Source of the DNA: Terrisporobacter othiniensis
Lineage (GTDB): Bacteria > Bacillota > Clostridia > Peptostreptococcales > Peptostreptococcaceae
Reading direction: 5' to 3'
NCBI RefSeq assembly: GCF_000808015.1
Contig: NZ_JWHR01000032.1
Coordinates: 1 to 58,876, forward strand
Length of the DNA: 58,876 nucleotides
Part shown: piece by piece, positions 194-51,123 of the stretch
Layout of the letters: every line of letters starts with the position of its first letter
Numbering within the stretch: the first letter of the stretch is position 1
Program-made: the position numbers and the translations under genes
Notes under the pieces: generated by a model
Database searches by the model: none
What the model saw: the letters and a program-made list of their open reading frames with translations, nothing else
What the model was told of the DNA's origin: nothing

Positions 194-1384
194 ATGAATA
201 TAACAGTAAACGACTGCTTACAACTACCTATAATGTCAGCGGCAACTGTAGTAGCAGGCAGCGGTGGACTAAACAAAAATGTATTAGGAATATCAGTTTT
301 AGAAACAAGTAAAACAATTTTAAATAGTGATAGCTATAAAGGATTTGGGGGAGAGTTAGTAGTTACAGGATTTATATCATGCTATGATGATATAGAAAGT
401 ATGTTGAGATGTGTAGAGCTATTTGCAAAAGGAGGAGATTCTGGCCTGATAATATTTTATGTTGGCATTTATCTAAAAGAAATACCCAAAGAAGTATGCG
501 AACTAGCTGATAAATTAGATTTTCCAATAATAATGATGCCTAAAAATACAGATGCTATTCCGTATTCTTATGTGATTTATGAAGTAATGCAGCTTATTTT
601 TCAGAAGAAACTAGAGGCAAATGCATGGAGAAAAAATAGTCATGAAATAGATGCAGAATTTGTACAATCCATTTTAGATGAAGATCGAATGTCACTTCAC
701 AGATTATCTTTTTATATAGATGATTATCCAGAAGATATTAGATATATGAGATATGTTTATATAGAAGAGTCATTTTTGAAAAAAGGTGAATTACTAGATA
801 AAATCAGAAGGTTTTATAAAGATAATAATATTAAGGCTTATATAGGAATATATAAAAACTCAATTGTTATTTTAATATCAAAGAAAAGTAGTTTAATAAG
901 CGATGAAATAGACAAATTATATGAATATATAGATGATATTTATGAGAGACCAATTATATCACACCTAGATAAATTAAATTCTCTAGAAGATATAATAAGT
1001 GCATATAAATTATGTGCATTTACAATGAAAGAAATAAAATTTATATTTAAAACTAAAAAATATTTTAATAGACATGAGTTATTATTTACAGAACAATGTA
1101 TTAATTTAATAAAAGACGGAGAAAGTGACATACAATATTATTTATCAATAGTAAATAAAGTTGAAAAAAGCGATAAAAATTTATATGAAACATTAGAGTC
1201 TTATTTAATAGATTACAATACTAATATTATAGAAACCTCAGAAAATATGTTTCTACATAAAAATACAGTTCAATATAGATTGAATAAAATTAAAGAAGCT
1301 ATAGGAAGTGATATATTTGAATTTCCAGCAATAAATCAATTGACTATAGCAATAGCAATAAAAAGAATTCGAAATAATAGATAG
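194..1384 (+). CDS. PucR family transcriptional regulator
   Basis: A cytoplasmic DNA-binding regulator of the PucR/CdaR type, 396 aa. Residues 1 to about 125 match the PucR N-terminal domain (start MNITVNDCLQLP, then a GGELVVTGF-like strand). The middle is a degenerate nucleotide-cyclase-like region. The C-terminus (about 340-390) holds the HTH_30 helix-turn-helix, with a segment reading FLHKNTVQYRLNKIKEAIG. A GGGGGG ribosome binding site sits just before the ATG. PucR proteins usually control purine or other nitrogen-ring catabolism. The next genes on this strand are a nucleobase-type permease, DUF917 and a hydantoinase, so control of that operon is the natural inference. A strong terminator separates the two transcripts. 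Confidence 0.85.
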   Translation: MNITVNDCLQLPIMSAATVVAGSGGLNKNVLGISVLETSKTILNSDSYKGFGGELVVTGFISCYDDIESMLRCVELFAKGGDSGLIIFYVGIYLKEIPKEVCELADKLDFPIIMMPKNTDAIPYSYVIYEVMQLIFQKKLEANAWRKNSHEIDAEFVQSILDEDRMSLHRLSFYIDDYPEDIRYMRYVYIEESFLKKGELLDKIRRFYKDNNIKAYIGIYKNSIVILISKKSSLISDEIDKLYEYIDDIYERPIISHLDKLNSLEDIISAYKLCAFTMKEIKFIFKTKKYFNRHELLFTEQCINLIKDGESDIQYYLSIVNKVEKSDKNLYETLESYLIDYNTNIIETSENMFLHKNTVQYRLNKIKEAIGSDIFEFPAINQLTIAIAIKRIRNNR

Positions 1385-1422
1385 AAAATAATAGCTAGAA
1401 AAATATATAGGTTCAATGAAAT

Positions 1423-1474
1423 AAAAATAATCTTGTTTTTTTATACAAAAAAACAAGATTATTTTTATTTTTTG
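1423..1474 (+). terminator. Rho-independent terminator after pucR-like gene
   Basis: A long, A/T-rich stem (AATAATCTTGTTTTTTT paired with its complement) with a tiny ATA loop is followed by a T-rich run. It ends the regulator transcript before the permease promoter. Confidence 0.8.
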
Positions 1475-1498
1475 CACAAAAGAATTTTCAAAAATTTC

Positions 1499-1507
1499 TG
1501 TTATAAT
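1499..1507 (+). promoter_or_regulatory. Extended -10 promoter of the permease operon
   Basis: TGTTATAAT is a perfect extended -10 (TGnTATAAT) about 40 bases ahead of the permease start. No good -35 is visible, which fits an extended -10 promoter or one needing an activator such as the upstream PucR protein. Confidence 0.55.
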
Positions 1508-1548
1508 TGATACTATTAAATTAAAATTCACAAAAGGGGATGTTTATT

Positions 1549-2805
1549 ATGGAAAATCAAGCAGTAGAAAATTACGCATTAGAGCAAGTTCCTGATGATA
1601 TGAAACGTGGATGGAAATCCATATTTTGTGTATTAGTTGCAATAGGTGTGGATTTATCATCTGTAATTTTAGGAGCGGAACTTGCAAATAGTATGCCGCT
1701 GGACAAAGCAATACTTTCAGTAGTGGTTGGTTCTTTTTTGTCAGCAATTTTGTATACATTATGCTCATTAGTAGGTTCGTCTACTAGCTTATCCACATCA
1801 ATGATAACAAAATATGTATTTGGAGATATAGGCGCAAAAATATTTTCTCTTGCCATAGGTATATCTTTACTTGGATGGTTTGGTGTACAAGTTGGATTTT
1901 TCTCAGAAAATGCTAGTTTGTTATTCAATAATTTTAATATAAATATTGATGTTAGAATTCTTAGTCTAGTTGGTGGGTTATTAATGATGAGTACAGTTAT
2001 TTATGGATATAGAGCAATGGAAAAGTTAAGTGTTTATTCAGTACCATTATTATTAGCACTTATGTTTTTAACAATACTCTTAGGATTTAAAGCAAATGGC
2101 ATTCCAACTATAGAAGCTAATATGGAACAAACTATGACTTTTGCGCAAGGTGTTTCTTTAGCTGTAAGTATAATAATTGTTGGAGCAATAATATCACCAG
2201 ATATAAGCCGTTGGGCAAAAAGTAGAAAAGATTGTACATTAGCAAGTTTCTTTGGAATTCTATTTGGAAATAGTTTTATGATTATAGTTTCCATAATTCT
2301 TGTAAAATGTATGGGAACATCAGAAATAATGAATATATTCTTAGCACTAGGATTGGCTATACCAGGAATGATAGTTTTAACATTAGCTCAATGGACAACA
2401 AATACAAGTAATATTTATTCATCAGCATTGAGTATTGCTTTAGTAGTTAAAAATATATCTCAGAAAAAATTAACAATAATCTTAGGCTTAATAGCAACAT
2501 TATTAGCTGTTTTAGGAATATATGAAGGGTTTATAAATTTTTTAAATATATTAGGAATAGTGGTGGCACCTGTTGGTGGGGTATACATAGCAGAGTACTA
2601 TATAGTTAAAAAGGCTTTTAAAAATATAGAAGATGAATCAAGTGTAAATCCTATAGTTACACGATCTATAGTAGCATGGGTAATAGGTATAGTAATAACA
2701 ACACTTTCAACTTACGGGTTTATTACATTAAGTACAATATCACCTCTAGATGGTTTTATTACAGGATTTATAGCACAAGCAATAATAGGTAAATTATCAA
2801 AATAA
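1549..2805 (+). CDS. NCS1 family cytosine/purine-type permease
   Basis: An integral membrane symporter of 418 aa with about 12 hydrophobic segments, resembling CodB-type members of the nucleobase:cation symporter-1 family. The N-terminal stretch (YALEQVPDDMKRGW) and the following GVDLSSVILGAEL segment are typical. An upstream in-frame ATG exists at 1540, but it overlaps the AAAGGGGA ribosome binding site. The ATG at 1549 has correct spacing and is preferred. It is the first gene of an operon with DUF917 and hydantoinase/oxoprolinase genes. The substrate is therefore probably a small ring compound (hydantoin, cytosine, creatinine or allantoin-like). The exact ligand cannot be read from sequence. 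Confidence 0.8.
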   Translation: MENQAVENYALEQVPDDMKRGWKSIFCVLVAIGVDLSSVILGAELANSMPLDKAILSVVVGSFLSAILYTLCSLVGSSTSLSTSMITKYVFGDIGAKIFSLAIGISLLGWFGVQVGFFSENASLLFNNFNINIDVRILSLVGGLLMMSTVIYGYRAMEKLSVYSVPLLLALMFLTILLGFKANGIPTIEANMEQTMTFAQGVSLAVSIIIVGAIISPDISRWAKSRKDCTLASFFGILFGNSFMIIVSIILVKCMGTSEIMNIFLALGLAIPGMIVLTLAQWTTNTSNIYSSALSIALVVKNISQKKLTIILGLIATLLAVLGIYEGFINFLNILGIVVAPVGGVYIAEYYIVKKAFKNIEDESSVNPIVTRSIVAWVIGIVITTLSTYGFITLSTISPLDGFITGFIAQAIIGKLSK

Positions 2806-2816
2806 GGAGTGAAATA

Positions 2817-3896
2817 ATGAGACTATTAACAGAAGAAAGTATAGAGAAGATTGCAATAGGAGCAGCTGTATTAGGAACAGGGGGTGGAGGTGACCCATAT
2901 GTAGGAAAGTTGTTAGCCAAACAAGCTATAAAAAAATATGGACCAGTTAAACTTATATCTATTGAAGAATTAGAAGATGATGCCCTTGTAGTTCCTGTTT
3001 CGGGAATGGGGGCACCAACTATTACTATAGAAAAGCTTCTTTCTGAAGTTGAATTAACTGCTCCACTGGAAAAGATGGAAGAATTATTAAATAAAAAAGT
3101 TGATGTTATTATCCCTATAGAAATAGGGGGGATAAACTCATTAATGCCAATTGCAGTGGCAGCTCAAAAAGGATTGCCAATATTAGATGCAGATGCTATG
3201 GGAAGAGCCTTCCCAGAAGCACAAATGGTTACATTTTATTTGGCAGGATATAAAAGTTCACCAGTAACCATGGCAGACGAAAAAGGTAATACAGTAGTAA
3301 TTTATCCTAAGGATGGAATTTGGGCTGAAAGATTGGCTAGAACATTAACTATAGAAATGGGAGGAAGTTCTTCTGTGTCTGACTATGCCTTAAGTGGAAA
3401 GCAAGTAAAAAGTGCTGTCGTAGAAAATACCTTAACCATAGCAGAAAATATAGGCAAAACTTTAATGGAAAATAGATCTAATGCTCAAGTAGGCATTAAT
3501 AAAATGTTAGAAGACTTAAAAGGATATAAATTATTTGAAGGAAAAATAGTTGATATAAAAAGAGAATTAAAAGGTGGATTTACAAGAGGTCATGCTTATT
3601 TTAAAGGCATAAATGAATACACAGGAGATTATACAATACTTTTCCAAAATGAGCATTTAATTGCAAAGAAAGATGATGAAATCTTATGTACTACGCCAGA
3701 TTTAATAGCAGTATTAGATTTAGAGACAGGTATTCCAATAACTACAGAAAGAATGAAATATGGTTCAAGAGTAGTTGTGGTAGCTTTTCCTTGTAATTAT
3801 CAATGGAGAAGTGAAAAAGGATTAGAAGTAGCAGGACCTAAATATTTTGGATATGAAGTAGATTATGTACCAGTAGAAAAAATTCAAGGAAAATAA
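2817..3896 (+). CDS. DUF917 family protein (S-methyl thiohydantoin desulfurase-like)
   Basis: A soluble 359 aa protein of the DUF917 family. It shows the glycine-rich start GAAVLGTGGGGDPYVGK and the conserved PVSGMGAPT segment. DUF917 members are almost always encoded next to hydantoinase/oxoprolinase proteins, as here (4 bases upstream of the next ORF frame). A related domain has been described as a thiohydantoin desulfurase. The gene lies 11 bases after the permease with a GGAG ribosome binding site, so it is cotranscribed. The actual substrate is unknown. Confidence 0.85.
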   Translation: MRLLTEESIEKIAIGAAVLGTGGGGDPYVGKLLAKQAIKKYGPVKLISIEELEDDALVVPVSGMGAPTITIEKLLSEVELTAPLEKMEELLNKKVDVIIPIEIGGINSLMPIAVAAQKGLPILDADAMGRAFPEAQMVTFYLAGYKSSPVTMADEKGNTVVIYPKDGIWAERLARTLTIEMGGSSSVSDYALSGKQVKSAVVENTLTIAENIGKTLMENRSNAQVGINKMLEDLKGYKLFEGKIVDIKRELKGGFTRGHAYFKGINEYTGDYTILFQNEHLIAKKDDEILCTTPDLIAVLDLETGIPITTERMKYGSRVVVVAFPCNYQWRSEKGLEVAGPKYFGYEVDYVPVEKIQGK

Positions 3897-3917
3897 TTTG
3901 TGGGAGGAATATTTGGA

Positions 3918-5465
3918 ATGTATCGTATAGGAATTGACGTTGGAGGAACAAACACAGATGCGTGTATATTAGATAAAGATTTAAATGTAGTTAATTCTGT
4001 AAAAATGCCAACTACAGATGATGTGGAAAGTGGAATATACAACTCATTAAAAAAAGTTTTAGAAGAAAGTAAAATAGATTCTTCTTTAATAAAATATGTT
4101 ATGCTCGGAACAACTCATTGTACAAATGCAATAGTAGAAAGAAAAAGATTAAATAACGTAGCTATGATAAGGATAGCAAAACCAGCAACAGTTGCAATAA
4201 ATCCGTTTATTGATTGGCCAGAAGATTTAAGACAAAAAGTTGAATTAGACTCCATAATAGTATCAGGCGGATATGAATTTGATGGAAGAATAATCTCTGA
4301 ATTATGTAAAGATGAAGTAGTAGAATTTTGTGAAAAAGTAAAAGGAAAAGCAGAAAGTGTTGCTATAAGTGGTGTATTTTCACCAGTAAATAATGAGCAA
4401 GAAAAACAAGTAGCCAAATGGGTTAGAGAGGTTTTAGGAGAGGATATTCCAATATCTCTATCTAATGAAATTGGAAATGTGGGAATTTTAGAAAGAGAAA
4501 ATGCAGCTATTTTAAACTCGGCACTATCAAAAGTAGGAAAAGATGTTTCCCTTGGATTAAAAAAATCTTTACATCAATTAAATATAGATGCACAAATTTA
4601 TTTTAGTCAAAATGATGGAACTTTGATGAATTTAGAATACACAGTTAAATACCCTATATTTACTATAGGATGTGGTGTTACAAACTCCATAAGAGGAGCA
4701 TCATTTTTATCTAAAGTAAAAAATGCCGTAGTGTTAGATGTGGGTGGTACAACTAGTGATTTAGGTATTTTACAAAATGGATTTCCAAGAGAATCAGCCA
4801 TAGCAGTAGAAGTTGGTGGAGTACATACAAACTTTAGAATGCCTGATATTATATCCATAGGTCTGGCAGGAGGAACTTGTGTAAAAGGTGATATAAATTC
4901 TTTTAAAATAGGGCCAGAAAGTGTGGGTTATAAGATAACAGAAGAAGCCTTAGTATTTGGAGGAAATACACTAACTCTATCAGATGTAGCTACAAAATTA
5001 GGAAGAGCTTTTGGTGATAAAATAAATAATGTATCTGATTTAGATATAAAATATTGTGAATTGATACAAGAAAAAGTTAAAACTACACTTGAAGACTTAA
5101 TAGATCAAATGAAAACTAATCAAGATGATGTGGACTTAGTATTAACTGGTGGAGGAAGCATAATTGTACCAGAGAAACTACAAGGAGTTAAAAATATAAT
5201 TATACCACCACATTATAATGCAGCCAATGCCATAGGTGCAGCTCTTGGTCAAGTAAGTGGTGATGTTGAAAAAGTATATAGTTTAGATAAAATATCAAGA
5301 GAAGATGCTATAAACGAGGTAAAAGAAGAAGCAATAAAAAAAGCTCAAATGGCAGGGGCCAAGCTTGATAGTATATCTGTATTATTTATTGAAGATGTGC
5401 CTTTAGCTTATCTTCCTGGAAATGCCATAAGAATAAAAATAAAAGTTGTAGGAGATTTAGTATAA
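3918..5465 (+). CDS. Hydantoinase/oxoprolinase family protein
   Basis: A 515 aa ATP-dependent ring-opening enzyme of the HyuA/OplA type. The N-terminal Hydant_A_N domain begins YRIGIDVGGTNTDACILD, a sugar-kinase-like phosphate-binding motif. The central hydantoinase_A domain carries VLDVGGTTSDLGIL around residue 275. A GTG at 3900 extends the frame, but GGGAGGAA at 3902-3909 is the ribosome binding site, so the ATG at 3918 is preferred. The usual HyuB partner is absent. Stand-alone HyuA-like proteins paired with DUF917 are common in anaerobes. It ends the operon at a bidirectional terminator. Confidence 0.87.
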   Translation: MYRIGIDVGGTNTDACILDKDLNVVNSVKMPTTDDVESGIYNSLKKVLEESKIDSSLIKYVMLGTTHCTNAIVERKRLNNVAMIRIAKPATVAINPFIDWPEDLRQKVELDSIIVSGGYEFDGRIISELCKDEVVEFCEKVKGKAESVAISGVFSPVNNEQEKQVAKWVREVLGEDIPISLSNEIGNVGILERENAAILNSALSKVGKDVSLGLKKSLHQLNIDAQIYFSQNDGTLMNLEYTVKYPIFTIGCGVTNSIRGASFLSKVKNAVVLDVGGTTSDLGILQNGFPRESAIAVEVGGVHTNFRMPDIISIGLAGGTCVKGDINSFKIGPESVGYKITEEALVFGGNTLTLSDVATKLGRAFGDKINNVSDLDIKYCELIQEKVKTTLEDLIDQMKTNQDDVDLVLTGGGSIIVPEKLQGVKNIIIPPHYNAANAIGAALGQVSGDVEKVYSLDKISREDAINEVKEEAIKKAQMAGAKLDSISVLFIEDVPLAYLPGNAIRIKIKVVGDLV

Positions 5466-5601: not shown

Positions 5602-6276
5602 TTATAAAATTGTAAAGGTTTTATTGTTTAGCTCAATAATACCTTCATTTTTCATATTAGATAATTCTCTCATTAGAGAAGATCTGTTTACACCTAAATA
5701 TTCAGCAAATTTTGATTTACTAAAAGGTATTTTAACTTTATTAGAACTATATTTTTCAGATTCATAAGCTAAAAATGTCATTATTTTTTCACGAATATTT
5801 TTCTTTGATAAAATTTCTAGTTTATTTATTAATAGCATATTGTTTTCAACAATCTCATTAAGAAGATTTTCTCTAAATAATAACCTACAAGCGCAAGTAT
5901 TCTTACAATTATCAGTGCTATATTTTTTATGAAAAGGGAGGCATAGAATTTTACAGTCACTAGAACATCTATAAGTGTATGGACTTATGGATGGTTTATC
6001 TAAAACTATTTGTTCACCGAAGAAATTTCCTTCATAAATATCTAACATATATGTATTATTTCCTAAAATATCTATTTTTTCTATGGAGACACTTCCTGAA
6101 ATTATTATGCATAGAGAGTCTACTTTATTTCCTTGTAAAAAAACAATTTGATTTTTATCATAGAATTTATAATATGCCCCACAGCACTTTAAAAGATGCT
6201 CCAAATGTTCTAAAGGGAATTTTGAAAAAATATTAAGTTTAGTAAGTGTATTCATGTCTTTATATACATCAATCAT
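5602..6276 (-). CDS. Crp/Fnr family transcriptional regulator, cysteine-rich
   Basis: A cyclic-nucleotide-binding-fold regulator of about 224 aa with a C-terminal winged helix (AEYLGVNRSSLMRELSNMKNEG). A GTG at 6288 extends the frame by four codons, but it overlaps the AAGGTGGG ribosome binding site. The ATG at 6276 is therefore chosen. The sensor domain has cysteines around residues 108, 112 and 116 and a C-N-K-N-T-C-A-C cluster near 128-134 (numbering from the GTG). This suggests a metal, iron-sulfur or heme ligand rather than cAMP. It diverges from the methyltransferase/FmdE/ABC operon. A palindrome between them (6375-6390) is the likely binding site. The inducer is unknown. Confidence 0.85.
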   Translation of the reverse strand: MIDVYKDMNTLTKLNIFSKFPLEHLEHLLKCCGAYYKFYDKNQIVFLQGNKVDSLCIIISGSVSIEKIDILGNNTYMLDIYEGNFFGEQIVLDKPSISPYTYRCSSDCKILCLPFHKKYSTDNCKNTCACRLLFRENLLNEIVENNMLLINKLEILSKKNIREKIMTFLAYESEKYSSNKVKIPFSKSKFAEYLGVNRSSLMRELSNMKNEGIIELNNKTFTIL

Positions 6277-6374
6277 TATATTACCCACCTTATTTATTTT
6301 AATATCTTATTAATTTAAATATTATCTTAAATTTCTTAAAAAAACATCAAATTTCTCAAAATAATTTATAAAAG

Positions 6375-6390
6375 TGTTGCATTTGCAACA
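6375..6390. promoter_or_regulatory. Palindromic operator candidate for the Crp/Fnr regulator
   Basis: TGTTGCA-TT-TGCAACA is a perfect 7-bp inverted repeat with a 2-base spacer, lying in the divergent intergenic region. Its centre (6382.5) is 41.5 bases before a start point expected from a TACTAT -10 element at 6412-6417. That is the classic class II activation geometry of Crp/Fnr proteins. Confidence 0.6.
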
Positions 6391-6411
6391 TATAAGCTAA
6401 GATAATTGGAT

Positions 6412-6417
6412 TACTAT
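6412..6417 (+). promoter_or_regulatory. Candidate -10 element of the methyltransferase/FmdE/ABC operon
   Basis: TACTAT matches four of six consensus -10 bases. No good -35 is present; the position is instead occupied by the palindrome at 6375-6390. This is as expected for an activator-dependent promoter. Confidence 0.4.
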
Positions 6418-6478
6418 TAATATTAAGTAAGATTACTTTGAAAAGTTAATTTTAAAATTTAATAAGAAAATAATATCT

Positions 6479-6534
6479 AGCCCGAAGGCTGAATAAATTT
6501 GTTATGAAGACGCTAATTTGAAAGCGTCTTTTTT
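6479..6534 (+). promoter_or_regulatory. Leader hairpin plus intrinsic terminator (attenuator candidate)
   Basis: A small AGCC-CGAA-GGCT hairpin (6479-6490) is followed by an AAGACGC/GCGTCTT stem (6507-6530) with a T run. This lies directly before the ribosome binding site of the methyltransferase gene. No gene ends upstream on this strand, so the terminator lies inside a 5' leader. It does not match a riboswitch class that I recognise. Confidence 0.5.
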
Positions 6535-6552
6535 GTTGTGAGGAGGGGTTAA

Positions 6553-7365
6553 ATGCAGTTAGATAATATTCGTAATTTATGGAAAAATGATAGTGTTAAC
6601 AAAAAAGCAAGTGTTGACTTATGGAATTCTATGGCAGGAAGCTTCAACAAATTTGTAGTTCCCACAGTAGAAAGTAGTAAGTTTTTAAAACTGGTATCAG
6701 ATAACAATATGATAAAATCTAATTTTAAAGTGTTAGACGTGGGGTGTGGAGTTGGAAAATATTCTATTGCTTTATCAAATTTATGTGAAAAAATTATAGG
6801 AATAGATTTATCACCAAAGATGATTGAAAATGCAAAGAGCAATAAAGAAGAATATAAGATAAATAATATAGAATTTTACTGTGAAGACTGGGCAGATATG
6901 GATTTAGATGAGAGAGGATTTGAAAATAATTTTGATTTAGTTTTTGCTCACATGACTCCAGCAGTAAATAGTGCAGAAACATTTGAAAAACTATCAAAAG
7001 CTAGTAAAAAATACTGCGTATTATGTAAACCGACTAGAAGGAGCGATCCTGTATCTGAAAAAGTAAAAGAGCTAGTAGGTATAAATAATAATAAAGAAAG
7101 TTGTGATATGGATATAGCCTATGCATTTGAAATGCTATGGTTACAAGGGTATGAACCAAAGGTAGAATATGAGAAACAAGTTTGGAATATGGAAAAAACA
7201 CTTGAAGAAGCTTTTGAATTATATATAAATAGAGTCAAATCATATAAAGATATTACCCTAGAGGAAGAAGAAATTATAAAAAAATATTTAGAGTCAATAA
7301 GCAAAGATGGAGTAGTTAGTGAAGATGTAAACACAACTATAGCAACTTTATATTGGCAAGTATAG
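6553..7365 (+). CDS. Class I SAM-dependent methyltransferase
   Basis: A 270 aa Rossmann-fold methyltransferase. Motif I reads VLDVGCGVGKYSIAL (about residues 61-75), followed by an acidic strand end IIGIDLSPKM. The ribosome binding site GAGGAGGGG precedes the ATG. It is the first gene of an operon with an FmdE protein 12 bases later and then a FecCD-type ABC importer. The target is unknown. Given its neighbours, a small molecule such as a metallophore, corrinoid or tetrapyrrole is more likely than DNA or RNA, but this is inference. Confidence 0.8.
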   Translation: MQLDNIRNLWKNDSVNKKASVDLWNSMAGSFNKFVVPTVESSKFLKLVSDNNMIKSNFKVLDVGCGVGKYSIALSNLCEKIIGIDLSPKMIENAKSNKEEYKINNIEFYCEDWADMDLDERGFENNFDLVFAHMTPAVNSAETFEKLSKASKKYCVLCKPTRRSDPVSEKVKELVGINNNKESCDMDIAYAFEMLWLQGYEPKVEYEKQVWNMEKTLEEAFELYINRVKSYKDITLEEEEIIKKYLESISKDGVVSEDVNTTIATLYWQV

Positions 7366-7377
7366 GAGGAAAATAAA

Positions 7378-7902
7378 ATGGATAAAAAATTATGGGAAAA
7401 AGCAGTGGAGTTTCATGGACATGAGTGTCCAGGTCTTGCAATAGGAGTAAGAGCTTGTGAGGCGATAATGGAGAAAATGGGTATTACATGTGCAAAAGAT
7501 GAAGAAATAGTTTGTATTACAGAAAATGATGCTTGTGGAGTAGATGCAATTCAATCATTACTTGGATGCTCCATAGGAAAAGGAAATTTAATTTATAGAG
7601 GAACAGGAAAACAAGCATTTTCATTCTTCAACAGAAAAAATGGTGAAAAATTACGTCTTTATTTTAAAGGAGTAAGTAATGTAGAGGATAGAGATGCTAA
7701 ACAAAAGTTTATTTTAGAAGGACCAATAGATGAAATATTTGACTTTTCAGTGCCAAAGTTTGATTTACCAGAGGAAGCTCGTATTTTTACAAGTATAGAA
7801 TGCGACTGTTGTAAAGAAAAAGCGCCAGAGCATAAGATGCATTTACAAGGTGGCAAAACAGTTTGTGAAGATTGCTTCAATCCATATAACAGAGGCTGGT
7901 AG
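7378..7902 (+). CDS. FmdE family protein with C-terminal zinc ribbon
   Basis: A 174 aa protein of the FmdE family, named for a subunit of molybdenum formylmethanofuran dehydrogenase but also found alone in bacteria. The N-terminal domain has the signature FHGHECPGLAIGVRAC and a second cluster ENDACGVDAIQSLLGC, both probable metal ligands. The C-terminal 40 residues form a treble-clef or zinc-ribbon finger (C-D-C-C, then C-E-D-C). Formylmethanofuran dehydrogenase is not expected in this organism. The link to an ABC metal/cofactor importer suggests metal or cofactor handling after uptake. The exact role is unknown. Confidence 0.85.
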   Translation: MDKKLWEKAVEFHGHECPGLAIGVRACEAIMEKMGITCAKDEEIVCITENDACGVDAIQSLLGCSIGKGNLIYRGTGKQAFSFFNRKNGEKLRLYFKGVSNVEDRDAKQKFILEGPIDEIFDFSVPKFDLPEEARIFTSIECDCCKEKAPEHKMHLQGGKTVCEDCFNPYNRGW

Positions 7903-8006
7903 TTTGAAATAATAAGAGAAGTTGGTAGCTTTAATAAATAACAAAATAATAGCAGATAATTATAGTTTTATTAAGCAATAAAATAAAAATGTGAGGGGGA
8001 ATTAAT

Positions 8007-9104
8007 ATGAAATTTATAAAACGTTTTTTACCAATAATGCTTATATTTATGTTGGTACTTACAGGATGTAGTCAAACATCTGACGAAGGAAAAAAAGAGG
8101 AGGCAACAACTAAAACTGTAACAGATATTTTAGGGAGAGAAGTAGAAATACCAAGTGAATCAGATTCTATTATAGCTTTAGGTGCTGGAGCTTTGAGAAT
8201 GGTGTGCTATATGCAGGGAACAGATAAAGTTGTAGGTGTAGAAAATTTAGAAAGTGAAACAGATATAGCAAGACCTTACAGCTATGTTTATCCAGAACTT
8301 TCTAAGTTGCCAGTAGTTGGTGAAGGTGGAAGTAATGGTAGTGTTGCATATCAGGAAGAAATAATAAAAGCAGAACCAGATGTTATAATAGCTGCTTATG
8401 ATAAAGATATGGCAGAAGATTTAACTAAAAAGACTGGAATACCAGTAGTTACAGTTTCTTATGATGGAATATTTGATGAGAATATGGATAAATCTCTAAA
8501 ATTAATAGGAGAAGTTATTGGAAAACAAGATAGAGCAGATGAATTAGTTACATATATGGATGAATTAGAAAAAGATTTAAATGATAGAACTAAGGATATA
8601 GCTGATGAAGATAAACCAACAGTATATACTGGAGCAGTAAGTTTTAGAGGAGAACATGGATTTGAAGGAACATATGCTAAATATCCTCCTTTTGATGCAA
8701 TAAATGCTAAAAATGTAGTAGATGAAACTAAAAAAAGTGGAGCTTTATTAATAGATTTAGAAAAAGTATCTACTTGGGATCCAGATATAATTTTCTTAAA
8801 CCCTACAAATATGAAATTAGTAAATGAAGATTATAAGAAAAATCCTGATTTTTATAATTCACTAAGTGCTGTAGAAAACAAAAAAGTTTATTCTCAACCA
8901 TCATATAACTGGTATACAACAAATGTGGAAATTGCAATAGCAGATGCTTACTATGCAGGAACTATAATATATCCAGAGCAATTTAAAGATGTAAAAGTGG
9001 AAGAAAAAGCAGATGAAATATACGAAAAATTCTTAGGTAAAAAGTTATATAGTGATTTTGTAAAAGAAGGATTAGGGTTTGGACCTATTACTATTGGGGA
9101 GTGA
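8007..9104 (+). CDS. ABC transporter substrate-binding lipoprotein (FepB/BtuF type)
   Basis: A 365 aa periplasmic-binding-like lipoprotein anchored to the outer face of the membrane. The signal peptide ends in a lipobox LTGC with Cys21, followed by a charged linker. The TroA/BtuF fold is shown by VTDILGREVEIP and GVENLESETDIA. The segment SFRGEHGFEGTYAKYPPF near residue 215 could form part of the ligand pocket. Family members bind ferric siderophores, heme, cobalamin or molybdate. It is the first of three importer genes, with a GTGAGGGGG ribosome binding site. Confidence 0.85.
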   Translation: MKFIKRFLPIMLIFMLVLTGCSQTSDEGKKEEATTKTVTDILGREVEIPSESDSIIALGAGALRMVCYMQGTDKVVGVENLESETDIARPYSYVYPELSKLPVVGEGGSNGSVAYQEEIIKAEPDVIIAAYDKDMAEDLTKKTGIPVVTVSYDGIFDENMDKSLKLIGEVIGKQDRADELVTYMDELEKDLNDRTKDIADEDKPTVYTGAVSFRGEHGFEGTYAKYPPFDAINAKNVVDETKKSGALLIDLEKVSTWDPDIIFLNPTNMKLVNEDYKKNPDFYNSLSAVENKKVYSQPSYNWYTTNVEIAIADAYYAGTIIYPEQFKDVKVEEKADEIYEKFLGKKLYSDFVKEGLGFGPITIGE

Positions 9105-9108
9105 TTAG

Positions 9109-10179
9109 ATGTTAGCAATGAAACAGCATAAAGTACTAAGTGATTATAATCAGTATGTTTATAAAAAAAGGTTCATATTACTTATTACACTTTTACTTAC
9201 AATAGGAATGGGGCTTTATGCAATTAGTGTAGGATCATCAAATTTACCTGTAATAGAAGTTATCAAAACTCTTTTGGGACAAGGTAGCAAGCAAAGTAAT
9301 ATGCTTTTGTATAATATAAGACTACCTAGAGTTGCTATGGCAGTAGTATCTGGAGTAGGTTTAGCTATTACAGGATGTGTTATGCAAAGTATATTAAAAA
9401 ATCCTTTGGCATCTTCATCAACTTTAGGAGTATCTCAAGGGGCTGCATTTGGAGCTGCACTAGCTATAGTATATTTTGGAGCAGGAGCTATACAAAGTAA
9501 TACAGCAGATGCAGTGGCAATTAGTAATCCATATATGACAAGTATTTGTGCTTTTTTAGGATCCATGGGAGCAACAATAGTTATTTTAATACTTTCTAGA
9601 TTTAAAAAAGTAACACCTGAAACTATGGTGCTTGCAGGAGTTGCCATAAGTTCATTGTTTTCTGGAGCAACGGCTCTAATTCAGTATTTTGCCAATGATG
9701 TTCAAGTTGCAGCTATAGTATTTTGGACCTTTGGAGATTTAGGTAGAGCATCTTGGACAGAAATATTAATAGTTACAGTTATATCGTCAGTAGCTCTTTT
9801 GTATTTCTTTTATAATCGATGGAATTATAATGCATTGGAAAGTGGTGAACAAACGGCAAAAGGTTTAGGAGTAAATGTATCTGCCATGAGGATTGTAGGT
9901 ATGATAATATGCTCTTTGACTGCATCAGTTATTGTATCTTTTGTTGGAATAATCAACTTTATAGGATTAATAGCACCTCATATTATGAGAAGGTTTATAG
10001 GAAATGACTATAGATATTTAATACCTGCATCAGCAATATTAGGAGCTTTCTTATTATTATTTAGTGATACTATAGCAAGAATGGTAATATCTCCAATAAT
10101 TTTGCCAATAGGAACTATAACATCTTTTATGGGTGCTCCTCTGTTTTTATATATTTTATTTAAAGGAGTTGAAAAATAA
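9109..10179 (+). CDS. FecCD/BtuC family ABC transporter permease
   Basis: A membrane permease of 356 aa with about ten transmembrane helices. Family hallmarks are RLPRVAMAVVSGVGLAITG near residue 68, NPLASSSTLGVSQGA, and the C-terminal coupling helix region FIGLIAPHIMRRFIG. It starts 4 bases after the binding protein and overlaps the ATPase gene by one base (TAATG), indicating translational coupling. It forms a dimer that passes the substrate delivered by the lipoprotein. Confidence 0.9.
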   Translation: MLAMKQHKVLSDYNQYVYKKRFILLITLLLTIGMGLYAISVGSSNLPVIEVIKTLLGQGSKQSNMLLYNIRLPRVAMAVVSGVGLAITGCVMQSILKNPLASSSTLGVSQGAAFGAALAIVYFGAGAIQSNTADAVAISNPYMTSICAFLGSMGATIVILILSRFKKVTPETMVLAGVAISSLFSGATALIQYFANDVQVAAIVFWTFGDLGRASWTEILIVTVISSVALLYFFYNRWNYNALESGEQTAKGLGVNVSAMRIVGMIICSLTASVIVSFVGIINFIGLIAPHIMRRFIGNDYRYLIPASAILGAFLLLFSDTIARMVISPIILPIGTITSFMGAPLFLYILFKGVEK

Positions 10180-10934
10180 TGTTAAAAATTGATTCCTTAA
10201 AATTTTCATATAAGCACAATGCTAAAATTCTAGATGATATAAAATTTGATGTGGAAAGTGGAGAGTGTATAGCAGTACTTGGCAACAATGGAGCTGGAAA
10301 AAGTACAATGTTAAAATGCTTAAACAGAATTATTTCACCTCAATATGGTAGCGTTTATGTGGAAGAAGAAGATATACTAAAGCTTAGACAAGGTGATATT
10401 GCAAAGAAGATAGCCTATGTAGCGCAAAAAAATGAAGCAACTAAATTTACAGTATTTGATGCAGTACTTCTTGGAAGAAAGCCTTATATAAAAGTTAGTG
10501 AAACTAGAAAAGATATAGAAATAGTTGAAGATATAATAAAAAGAATGGGATTAGAAGATTTTTCATTGAGATATTTAGATGAGCTTAGTGGAGGAGAATT
10601 ACAAAAAGTAATGCTGGCTAGAGCATTAGCACAACAACCTAAAGTTTTATTATTAGATGAACCTACAAGTAATTTAGATTTAAAAAATCAATTGGATGTA
10701 TTAAAAACAGTTCACGAAATTGCCCATGAAAATAATATATCTGTAATTATTGTAATACATGACTTAAATTTAGCTTTAAGGTATTGTGATAAATTTATGT
10801 TTTTAAAAGATAGAAAAATATACGGTTATGGAGGTATGGAGATAATGTCTCCTGAAAATATTGAGGAGGTATATAAGGTACCTGTAGAAGTAAAGTCTTA
10901 TAATAATAGAAGTATAGTTATACCTTTAACCTAA
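10179..10934 (+). CDS. FepC/BtuD-type ABC transporter ATP-binding protein
   Basis: A cytoplasmic ATPase of 251 aa that powers the FecCD-type importer. It shows Walker A (GNNGAGKST), the signature LSGGELQKV, Walker B (VLLLDEPTS) and the H-loop (VIVIHDLNLA). The gene overlaps the permease stop by one base. It ends the operon before a strong terminator. The operon has no second permease, consistent with a permease homodimer. Confidence 0.92.
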   Translation: MLKIDSLKFSYKHNAKILDDIKFDVESGECIAVLGNNGAGKSTMLKCLNRIISPQYGSVYVEEEDILKLRQGDIAKKIAYVAQKNEATKFTVFDAVLLGRKPYIKVSETRKDIEIVEDIIKRMGLEDFSLRYLDELSGGELQKVMLARALAQQPKVLLLDEPTSNLDLKNQLDVLKTVHEIAHENNISVIIVIHDLNLALRYCDKFMFLKDRKIYGYGGMEIMSPENIEEVYKVPVEVKSYNNRSIVIPLT

Positions 10935-11444: not shown

Positions 11445-11639
11445 ATGTGTGAATCATCAGCGTTTATAATGGGAAAAAATAATGAGTTAATAAAAATAAT
11501 GGACTATATAGTAAATATAAATCCAGATGGAGACAAGGTTTATTTAACTGATTTATTTGGAAATCAAAAAATTATAGACGGGGCGATTAAAGAGATGAGA
11601 TTAATTGACCACAAAATAATTTTAGAGGAAAATAAATAA
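11445..11639 (+). CDS. cooT: CooT family nickel-binding protein
   Basis: A 64 aa protein starting MCESSAF, with the conserved Cys2 that is the nickel ligand in characterised CooT. The rest of the chain (VNINPDGDKVYLTDLFGNQ) matches this small beta-rich family. In CO-oxidising bacteria CooT helps deliver nickel to carbon monoxide dehydrogenase. It binds nickel at a dimer interface. Ribosome binding site AAGGGAGG. The downstream DUF3842 gene follows after 33 bases and is probably cotranscribed. Confidence 0.8.
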   Translation: MCESSAFIMGKNNELIKIMDYIVNINPDGDKVYLTDLFGNQKIIDGAIKEMRLIDHKIILEENK

Positions 11640-11672
11640 TTTAAAAACAATAAAATTAGGGAGAGAGTAAGT

Positions 11673-12089
11673 ATGGTAGTTGCAGTGATCGATGGAATGG
11701 CTGGGGGAATAGGTGCGCAAGTGATTAAAGCTATTAGAGAAGAGTTACCTTCATATATAGAAATATATGCATTGGGGACAAACTCCATAGCTACAAGTGC
11801 TATGATGAAATCTCATGCTAACAAAGGTGCTACGGGTGAAAATGCCATAGTAGTATCTTCTAAAAAGGCTAATGTAATTGTTTCACCCATATCTATAGTT
11901 ATGCCAAACTCTATGATGGGAGAGGTTACAAGTAGAATGAGTGAGGCAGTGTGTGATAGTGAAGCATTTAAGATATTATTACCACTCGTACCAGAAAATT
12001 TAGAAATAGTAGGGATAGAAGGTAAACCTTTATCATTACTAATAAAAGATGCAGTAAAATTAATCAAAAAAGAATTTAACATAAAATAA
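11673..12089 (+). CDS. DUF3842 family protein
   Basis: A 138 aa protein recognised as DUF3842. It has a Rossmann-like glycine-rich start (VVAVIDGMAGGIGAQVI) and the internal segment IVSPISIVMPNSMMGE. Function is not established. Its pairing with the nickel protein CooT suggests a role in metal or cofactor handling in anaerobes. Ribosome binding site GGGAGAGAG. Confidence 0.8.
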   Translation: MVVAVIDGMAGGIGAQVIKAIREELPSYIEIYALGTNSIATSAMMKSHANKGATGENAIVVSSKKANVIVSPISIVMPNSMMGEVTSRMSEAVCDSEAFKILLPLVPENLEIVGIEGKPLSLLIKDAVKLIKKEFNIK

Positions 12090-49273: not shown

Positions 49274-49299
49274 AATATCAAATTATACAACTGAATTAA

Positions 49300-49470
49300 A
49301 AAGGTAGAGGTTGCGATATTTAAGAGTAGATTTGTGGAGTTAAGCACGAAGAAGCAAATCAAAAGGAAATGTCGCCGAAACATATAACTAATGCTTTAAA
49401 GTTATATCGTTGGGATTATACAGAATATGTATAATACTGTCATAAATATTATTTATGGGGAGCTATCATG
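49300..49470 (+). ncRNA. Lysine riboswitch (L box)
   Basis: The conserved blocks are present in order: GGTAGAGGTTGCGA, AAGAGTA, GGAGTTAAGC, AAGGAAATGTCGCCGAA, a long hairpin arm, CGTTGGGA, and GGGGAGCTATCATGA closing the P1 stem. These match the known lysine riboswitch core closely. It is followed by a terminator and controls the YfcC transporter and M20 hydrolase genes. Confidence 0.92.
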
Positions 49471-49518
49471 ACGGATATGTTTTTGTTAAATTTCAAAATA
49501 TACTAATTTATAAAACAC

Positions 49519-49692: not shown

Positions 49693-51123
49693 ATGAATGT
49701 AACAACGTCAGTAAATGAAAAAAGAAAAAAATCTACAGGTGGAAACTTTAAAGTACCACACACATTAGTAATAATATCAGCTATTATACTCCTTGTATCA
49801 ATAGCTACTTATATAGTACCAGGAGGTGCTTATGAGAAAGCAGTAAATGATTTAGGTAAAACTGTAGTTGTGGATGGATCATTTAAATATATAGAAAATG
49901 AGCCACAAGGATTATTTGCAATATTACAAGCGCCTATCCAAGGAATTGTAGATAGTGGAGAAATAATAGCATTTTTATTTATAGTAGGTGGAGCTTTTAA
50001 TATAATATCAAGAACAAAAGCAATAGATTTCGGTATTGTTAATATAGTAAATGCGTTTAAAGGGAAAGAAATTTTAATTATTCCAATAATAACTACAATC
50101 TTCTCTTTAGGTGGTGCAGTATTTGGAATGTACGAAGAATCAGTGCCATTTGTTGCGATTTTAGTACCATTAATGCTGGCTCTAGGATATGACAGTATAA
50201 TGGCGGTTGCAGTTACATATTTGGCATGTGCTCTAGGATTTTCTTCAGCAATGCTTAATCCTTTTACAGTAGGGATAGCGCAATCAATAGCAGAAATACC
50301 AATGTTTTCTGGAATAGCATATCGTACAATAATATGGGTAATAACAACTATTGTTGGATGTGCGTTTTTAATGATGTATGCTAGAAAAATTAAAAAGAAT
50401 CCTGAGTTAAGCCCAGTTTATGAAAGTGACAAAATAAAAAGAGAAAACTTACAAAACTTTGAAGAAGACCATGGAAAATTCACTTTAACTCATAAAGTAA
50501 TATTAGCTTCACTTGCAATATGTATAGGTGTAATAGTTTGGGGAGTTTTAGCTAAGGGGTTCTGGATACCTCAAATAGCAGCAGTATTTTTAATAACGGG
50601 ATTATTTAGTGGAATAATAGGAAGACTTTCAGGAGATGAAATGGCAGATGCATTTTTAGAAGGCGCAAAAGGTATGATAGGTGCAGCTGTTATGATAGGA
50701 TTTGCAAGAGCTATAGTAATAGTTGCTGAAAATGCAAGTATAATAGATACAATTTTATATAACTTATCTAATGTAATAGGACAGTTACCTTCATTATTAG
50801 CAGCTTGTATAATGTACCCTATACAAATGTTCATCAACTTCTTTGTTGGCTCAGGTTCAGGACAAGCAGCTTTAACAATGCCAATACTAGCACCACTTGG
50901 TGATTTAATAGGAGTATCTCGCCAATTAACAGTTTTAATATTCCAATTTGGAGATGGTTTCTCAAATATTATCTTCCCAACATCAGGAATATTAATAGCT
51001 TGTTTAGGAATAGCTGGAGTTCCTTTTGGAAAATGGTTCAAATGGGTACTTCCATTACAAGGAATACTATTTGTTTTAGCAATAACATTTATCACAATAG
51101 GTTCGCTTATGGGATGGTCATAA
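49693..51123 (+). CDS. yfcC: YfcC family basic amino acid transporter
   Basis: A 476 aa secondary transporter of the YfcC/ArcD-like (C4-dicarboxylate carrier-like) family with about twelve helices. Landmarks are VPGGAYEKAVND, the GGAFGMYEESVPF-like segment (here GGAVFGMYEESVPFVAI) and FINFFVGSGSGQAALTMPI. Control by a lysine riboswitch indicates that the cargo is lysine or a lysine-yielding compound. The protein is probably an importer needed when lysine is low. GAGGAGGAAA ribosome binding site. Cotranscribed with an M20 hydrolase 20 bases downstream. Confidence 0.87.
   Translation: MNVTTSVNEKRKKSTGGNFKVPHTLVIISAIILLVSIATYIVPGGAYEKAVNDLGKTVVVDGSFKYIENEPQGLFAILQAPIQGIVDSGEIIAFLFIVGGAFNIISRTKAIDFGIVNIVNAFKGKEILIIPIITTIFSLGGAVFGMYEESVPFVAILVPLMLALGYDSIMAVAVTYLACALGFSSAMLNPFTVGIAQSIAEIPMFSGIAYRTIIWVITTIVGCAFLMMYARKIKKNPELSPVYESDKIKRENLQNFEEDHGKFTLTHKVILASLAICIGVIVWGVLAKGFWIPQIAAVFLITGLFSGIIGRLSGDEMADAFLEGAKGMIGAAVMIGFARAIVIVAENASIIDTILYNLSNVIGQLPSLLAACIMYPIQMFINFFVGSGSGQAALTMPILAPLGDLIGVSRQLTVLIFQFGDGFSNIIFPTSGILIACLGIAGVPFGKWFKWVLPLQGILFVLAITFITIGSLMGWS

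Follow-up and report, generated by a model that had tools for sequence, protein, structure and literature searches.

A conserved gene set of Terrisporobacter that joins FmdE to a methyltransferase and a FecCD-type importer, a candidate module for nickel and/or cobalt assimilation

Most genes of the FmdE family (PF02663) adjoin metal-ion transporter genes (Axelrod et al. 2010, PMC2954224). The family had no assigned function when structures of its members were published in 2010, and a limited literature search showed none assigned since. In crystals of a Desulfitobacterium FmdE, a site formed by His15, His17, Cys19 and Cys55 held mixed Zn/Ni, and a fusion of FmdE with UPF0066 (PF01980) is named in the same account (PMC2954224). 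The window analyzed here, the whole stretch of 58,876 nucleotides from Terrisporobacter othiniensis, contains an FmdE gene in a compact operon (6553-10934, + strand) encoding a methyltransferase, FmdE, a substrate-binding lipoprotein (SBP), a FecCD-type permease and an ATPase, with a divergent Crp/Fnr gene (Table 1). Like the published family members, the window FmdE has the FHGHxC metal site, the zinc finger and the adjacency to a metal-ion transporter; since PMC2954224 already reports this adjacency, the link itself is not new. Unlike the window set, the available portion of that account connects FmdE to a methyltransferase only as the UPF0066 fusion and gives no link to acetyl-CoA synthase (ACS), no regulator and no cargo. 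The limited literature search, a weak test of absence, showed no paper on exchangeable methyltransferases, on an FmdE-ACS link or on the regulator. The set is described here as a real, conserved and, within that search, largely undescribed metal-assimilation module, the cargo of which is probably nickel and/or cobalt.

The type II importers BtuFCD, FhuBCD, MolABC and those for heme combine a FecCD permease with a Peripla_BP_2 binder, as does the window importer, in which the PF01032 permease, the PF01497 binder and the ATP-binding cassette (ABC) ATPase are present together. However, the window importer reaches no listed curated cut-off and is accompanied by FmdE and the methyltransferase. The permease scores below BtuC (207.6 vs. 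334 bits), the ATPase below BtuD (130.2 vs. 281 bits), and the heme importer cut-offs are missed as well (heme ATPase NF010068, 208.5 vs. 261 bits; IsdE, 33.6 vs. 298.65 bits). No NCBIfam cut-off is reached among the best 25 of 192 matched families for the ATPase or the best 25 of 51 for the methyltransferase, and no NCBIfam match listed for the other operon proteins or the Crp reaches its cut-off. The closest solved relative of the SBP is T. maritima TM0189 (2etv), the title of which names it as a putative Fe(III) transporter, and the SBP also shows sequence and fold likeness to 3psa, a comparison bearing on a MolABC-type importer. No known siderophore, heme or B12 receptor is a plain match for the binding protein. 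Its lipobox cysteine C21 is present in 23 of 27 aligned sequences. The chelate importers NikABCDE and CntABCDF differ from the FecCD importer of the window, and Nik-type importers replace FecCD in sister FmdE sets.

The conservation of the set was assessed in two samples. A patterned scan of genome contigs with peptides of the window FmdE gave 66 loci and was biased toward close relatives. The cleaner sample consisted of 245 genomes drawn evenly from the class, of which 21 carry the FmdE subfamily (threshold E <= 1e-30). These 21 genomes provided 22 class loci (20 fetched loci, L169 and L001) after the exclusion of five weaker FmdE hits, which were second copies or covered part of the length (E 3e-59 to 2e-37). 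Importer or methyltransferase neighbors were scored within 6 kb of FmdE, the importer on the same strand. The constancy of FmdE is partly by design, because all loci were found through it. An importer was present at 19 of the 22 class loci (14 FecCD, 3 Nik-type and 2 energy-coupling factor (ECF) type); the other three are L153, where the contig breaks off soon after a Nik-type binding protein begins, and L162 and L167, with none. Among the 66 scanned loci, 37 have an importer (FecCD 23, Nik-type 13, ECF 3, Znu-type 1, overlaps counted), some matches being weak, such as the Nik hits of 27-28% in L005 and L052. The fused ATPase of L036 exceeds the NikE cut-off (351.6 vs. 332.55, two domains summed), and a sister SBP (L055) and permease (L066) score below the NikA, CntA and NikB cut-offs. 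Mrp-type P-loop NTPases lie upstream of FmdE in L029, L035, L037 and L163.

The methyltransferase near FmdE is drawn from three families. The window family (MT270) is found near FmdE at 14 of the 66 scanned loci, 10 with FecCD-type components, 3 with Nik-type components and one (L047) with neither, and at 8 of the 22 class loci, where TrmO is found at 2. A UbiE-like methyltransferase accompanies a Znu-type importer beside FmdE in L015 and an ECF S component in L021 and L141, and a TrmO_N methyltransferase accompanies an ECF S component in L155 and L156. The fold search with the window methyltransferase returned mostly small-molecule methyltransferases (TM scores up to about 0.63), so that no substrate is assigned. 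In one metagenome protein (P0236) a ParA-like domain is fused to MT270, possibly as an assembly artefact. Separately, an MT270-like paralogue of Terrisporobacter (L144, L145, L148) has no recognised importer adjoining, and in L145 (6703-8130) this second MT270-like methyltransferase is next to a Cu/Zn superoxide dismutase-like gene.

On this reading, FmdE is repeatedly paired with methylation and with metal import, and the parts are replaceable. The divergent Crp and all five operon genes recur in three further Terrisporobacter genomes (L001, L002, L131), whereas elsewhere the methyltransferase-FmdE-FecCD combination occurs without the Terrisporobacter-type Crp. The initial annotation had called for a survey of conserved clusters with this Crp type. 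A conserved metal-related uptake module with FmdE and a methyltransferase was found in many genomes; however, the gene set is not fixed, because importer and methyltransferase types vary between loci, and at the loci examined a directly divergent Crp is confined to Terrisporobacter. Against the refutation test set out in the initial annotation, the genes are found together in many genomes, but those around FmdE do vary.

Co-occurrence in the class genomes points to ACS. By TIGR00316 at E <= 1e-30, ACS was scored in 12 of the 245 genomes, 11 of them over the cut-off. It is present in 8/21 FmdE genomes and 4/224 others (Fisher p 3e-7; this and the following p values overstate the significance, because the genomes are related and the tests ignore kinship). 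All eight genomes with both ACS and FmdE carry the FecCD form, so that ACS is found in 8/14 FecCD-type genomes (p 5e-9). The carbon-monoxide dehydrogenase (CODH) CooS is over its cut-off in 12/21 FmdE genomes vs. 34/224 others (p 4e-5), and FmdE is present in only 4 of the 34 genomes that are CooS-positive and ACS-negative. CbiF is over its cut-off in 11/21 vs. 47/224 (p 0.003), and molybdopterin enzymes occur in 9/21 vs. 25/224. Corrin synthesis as the driver of the FmdE distribution was rejected, as the CbiF link is gone once ACS genomes are removed.

Neighboring genes place some of these sets close to acs clusters. In Thermohalobacter berrensis (L021) the set lies downstream of acs genes with the same orientation, among which NCBIfam identified AcsC and AcsB. 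In genome G162 (L163, L170) the set is followed by HcpR-like and ferredoxin genes and then by an acs cluster, in which AcsB, AcsC and CooS (in L170) were confirmed by NCBIfam; AcsD, AcsE, RACo and CooC were named by sequence reading. CooS lies 1.9 kb (L135) and 2.5 kb (L051) from FmdE, and L134 has just a CooS fragment at the locus edge. TonB receptors are upstream of FmdE in L046, L050, L051 and L052. Of the 102 FmdE loci, 66 were scanned with Rfam, which showed cobalamin riboswitches at five, a count with no measured background: immediately before an MT270-SBP5-NikB-NikC-ATPase operon in L066 (8716-8895), twice before cbiJ-cbiQ just downstream of the set in L030 (A. bakii), once just after the set in L050 and L166, and past a further gene in L015. 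In L019 a NiCo riboswitch, likewise with no measured background, lies close behind the set and ahead of a P-type ATPase gene. A scripted search for cobalamin boxes proved overly strict, finding only L066 and missing the other four Rfam loci, and was not used. As separate observations, rex, an FmdE copy and CooS lie close together in L135 (4715-9800), and a Rex-like gene is also near FmdE in L015; a very histidine-rich protein, possibly a nickel store, is encoded right after acsB in L170 (14937-15551).

The window FmdE scores 120.5 bits against PF02663 (cut-off 22.9). The core residues F12, H13, G14, H15 and C17, and the ligand C53, are present in 59/59 aligned sequences including that of the window, as are C142, C145 and C163 of the zinc finger, with C166 in 58/59. 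H13, H15, C17 and C53 correspond to the Zn/Ni site of the Desulfitobacterium FmdE (PMC2954224). No formylmethanofuran dehydrogenase subunit is encoded among the adjoining genes in the window, and FmdE is not in such an operon.

The Crp in the window resembles the HcpR regulators (PMC1274295; C. difficile hcpR, PMC12915319), which, in the available portions of these sources, also have a Crp/Fnr fold and a 16-bp palindrome. Position 181 is reported to be Pro in HcpR2, which has the motif GTAACnnnnGTTAC, and Ser in C. difficile and C. thermocellum, the motifs of which differ (PMC1274295). The window Crp carries both Crp/Fnr domains and is of the R-S type reported for the latter two. Unlike the HcpR of those sources, it is not beside hcp, its candidate operator is TGTTGCA-NN-TGCAACA, and it diverges from a metal operon. 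The palindrome TGTTGCATTTGCAACA lies 162 bases upstream of the methyltransferase start, and the three other Terrisporobacter sequences have TGTTACATTTGCAACA in the corresponding intergenic region. In neither the window nor L001, L002 or L131 is the window-type Crp beside hcp or frdX. T. mayombei and T. petrolearius have another Crp gene 1.1 kb from an hcp-type gene; in T. petrolearius this Crp is R-P and the hcp-type gene carries TGTAACATATGTTACA, the Hcp-type genes (L083, L087) bearing GTAACATATGTTAC instead of the TTGCA site. The Crp proteins of the window and of Anaerovorax (G004) are R-S with a TTGCA site. This split between R-P/TGTAACATATGTTACA and R-S/TTGCA agrees with the HcpR pattern described in the portion of PMC1274295 available. 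In Anaerovorax the exact 16-bp site occurs twice, once before the R-S crp gene, which diverges from a gene for ferredoxin, and once before a gene of the Prismane family, read here as hcp. Genes like Hcp, HcpR or FrdX occur within 8 kb of FmdE at 10/102 loci in about seven lineages, with no measured background, and in Romboutsia hcp (hydroxylamine reductase) is immediately upstream of the set, from which a terminator-like stretch separates it.

A scan of T. mayombei and T. petrolearius showed nine places with at most one mismatch to the site, two of them intergenic and before the operon, and seven inside open reading frames (ORFs); a wider Crp regulon in these genomes was rejected. The TACTAT/TATTAT element ~33 bases after the site center would suit class II activation. 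Between the promoter region and the first gene, a hairpin (AGCC-nGAA-GGCT) and a terminator-like stem are kept in four Terrisporobacter sequences and could possibly act in attenuation. A riboswitch before the operon was rejected, as Rfam on 6289-6560 gave only a chance sR30 hit (12.1 vs. 38 bits). With no riboswitch and a fold z-score of only -1.58, only the terminator-like hairpin is claimed for the leader.

The favored reading, with a probability of about 0.45, is that the set takes up nickel and/or cobalt with high affinity as an organic chelate and handles the metal on behalf of the Wood-Ljungdahl pathway. In its favor are the importers at 19 of the 22 class loci, the co-occurrence with ACS and CooS, the acs or CooS genes near FmdE in L021, G162, L135 and L051, the cobalamin riboswitches of L066 and L030, the NiCo riboswitch of L019, and the invariant FmdE ligands that match the Zn/Ni site. 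The lipoprotein would capture the metal complex, and the permease and ATPase would import it. The methyltransferase would then act on the imported ligand, methylating it and loosening its grip on the metal, and the exposed His/His/Cys/Cys site of FmdE would take the metal for the maturation of CODH/ACS or corrinoid enzymes. The HcpR-like Crp would control the operon by binding the palindrome in response to a putative signal. Nickel or cobalt uptake, suggested by gene context, is as probable as the reading as a whole, with nickel presumably slightly ahead of cobalt, while ligand methylation is doubtful. A further-reaching proposal, in which methylation by S-adenosylmethionine (SAM) opens Ni/Co chelates, FmdE is the metallochaperone of Wood-Ljungdahl enzymes, and three methyltransferase and four importer families have been recruited into an undescribed class of metal assimilation, is improbable.

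Besides the kinship of the genomes, through which the p values overstate significance, several observations weigh against the nickel/cobalt chelate reading. Nickel and cobalt are not separated by these data. No methyltransferase lies within 6 kb of FmdE in 12/22 class loci, and 29/66 scanned loci have no importer within this distance, only part of them being contig ends (L013, L023 and L054 stop inside a binding protein or permease). In a family survey FmdE (E <= 1e-20) was found in 23/71 genomes, and 6 of 11 loci fetched from these 23 have no importer, the other five having one; the six (L134-L139) are FmdE copies 49-52% identical to that of the window, and the copy beside CooS in L135 is one of them. 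CooS over cut-off is absent from 9/21 FmdE carriers. With ACS genomes removed, neither CooS (4/13, p 0.10) nor CbiF (3/13 vs. 45/220, p 0.73) is significant, and NiFe-hydrogenase shows no link (0/21 carriers vs. 13/224 others). At the gathering score, Rfam showed no riboswitch for Ni, Co or B12 in the window. The SBP fold also suits siderophores, and the Zn/Ni mixture in the FmdE crystals may derive from the nickel purification resin (PMC2954224).

The FmdE-ACS link would also fit the import of a corrinoid in intact form (cobamide or precursor), which FmdE and the methyltransferase would remodel for the ACS corrinoid protein. The FecCD fold is that of BtuCD, the five cobalamin riboswitches include those before the MT270-Nik operon and before a TonB receptor and Peripla_BP_2 gene (L050), and the four loci with upstream TonB receptors point the same way. 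However, the permease and ATPase fall below the BtuC and BtuD cut-offs, the CooS beside FmdE in L135 is no corrinoid enzyme, the CbiF link disappears without ACS genomes, and riboswitch proximity has no measured background rate. Nik- and Znu-type importers, present in sister sets, are not known to carry corrinoids. Corrinoid uptake is considered unlikely.

Siderophore binders among the SBP fold neighbors, together with the HcpR-like regulator and the Hcp-, HcpR- or FrdX-like genes near FmdE, would suit a ferric siderophore or other iron-complex importer tied to Fe-S repair under nitrosative stress, but this leaves the ACS link and the nearby cobalamin and NiCo riboswitches unexplained, and it is provisionally rated less probable than corrinoid uptake. 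Least probable is the uptake of molybdate or tungstate for formate dehydrogenase by a system like MolABC of H. influenzae: Nik- and Znu-type replacements carry cations, other binders match the SBP fold equally well as the molybdate type, and the molybdopterin link is weak in CooS-negative genomes (2/9 vs. 10/190, p 0.09). Of the nickel, molybdenum or corrinoid cargo suggested initially, the evidence best supports nickel or a corrinoid metal as the class, whereas the support for molybdenum is only indirect.

The initial annotation located every gene correctly, as shown by coordinates and Pfam matches, including the complete importer (PF01497, PF01032, PF00005) and the cysteine-rich Crp on the - strand (9 cysteines counted by eye). 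The zinc ribbon it assigned to FmdE is a C4 zinc finger, described in published relatives as a treble-clef and not a ribbon. Intergenic spacings of 12, 104 and 4 bases, together with a 1-base overlap, are compatible with a single operon. The host genome is Terrisporobacter-like, the window FmdE being 90% identical to those of T. mayombei and T. petrolearius.

Table 1. Positions of the gene set, its regulatory elements and the adjacent CooT gene in the window
Feature	Position	Strand	Basis
Crp/Fnr-family regulator, HcpR-like (R-S in recognition helix), cysteine-rich	5602..6288	-	PF00027, PF13545
Perfect palindrome TGTTGCATTTGCAACA, candidate Crp operator	6375..6390	.	
Leader with a small hairpin (6479-6490) and, at 6507-6534, a hairpin and T-run resembling an intrinsic terminator, ahead of first gene	6479..6534	+	sequence reading
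Class I SAM-dependent methyltransferase, MT270	6553..7365	+	PF13847, 4.1e-19
FmdE-family metalloprotein, core and C-terminal zinc finger	7378..7902	+	PF02663, 6.8e-35; zf-dskA_traR
Substrate-binding lipoprotein (SBP), Peripla_BP_2, 2etv-like	8007..9104	+	PF01497
FecCD-type permease	9109..10179	+	PF01032, 3.2e-90
ABC-importer ATPase	10179..10934	+	PF00005
CooT-family protein, neighbor, not a conserved part	11445..11639	+	PF10133, 1.6e-22

The CooT gene downstream, taken initially as a hint at nickel, molybdenum or a corrinoid, is real but was rejected as part of the system, since it is not conserved beside the set. T. mayombei yielded a single CooT, which lies 6 kb from acsB and is only 67% identical to the window CooT; the latter may therefore be a second copy. 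The window CooT is followed by a gene of the uncharacterised family DUF3842, the pair spanning 11445-12089. Elsewhere in the window, an S-Me-THD gene lies with hydantoinase-, permease- and PucR-type regulator-like genes, perhaps a hydantoin-type catabolic cluster (194-5465), and a lysine riboswitch (49297-49473, 117.4 bits) precedes a transporter-like ORF at 49693.

Sets related to that of Terrisporobacter recur in other anaerobes, above all in those building acetyl-CoA from carbon dioxide. The acquisition of nickel and cobalt and their delivery to CODH, ACS and corrinoid enzymes in acetogens and related anaerobes are poorly known. The recurrent association of FmdE with a methyltransferase and an importer, and its co-occurrence with ACS, offer a direct, testable entry to this metal supply, and the module would give meaning to a family still labelled formylmethanofuran dehydrogenase subunit E in databases.

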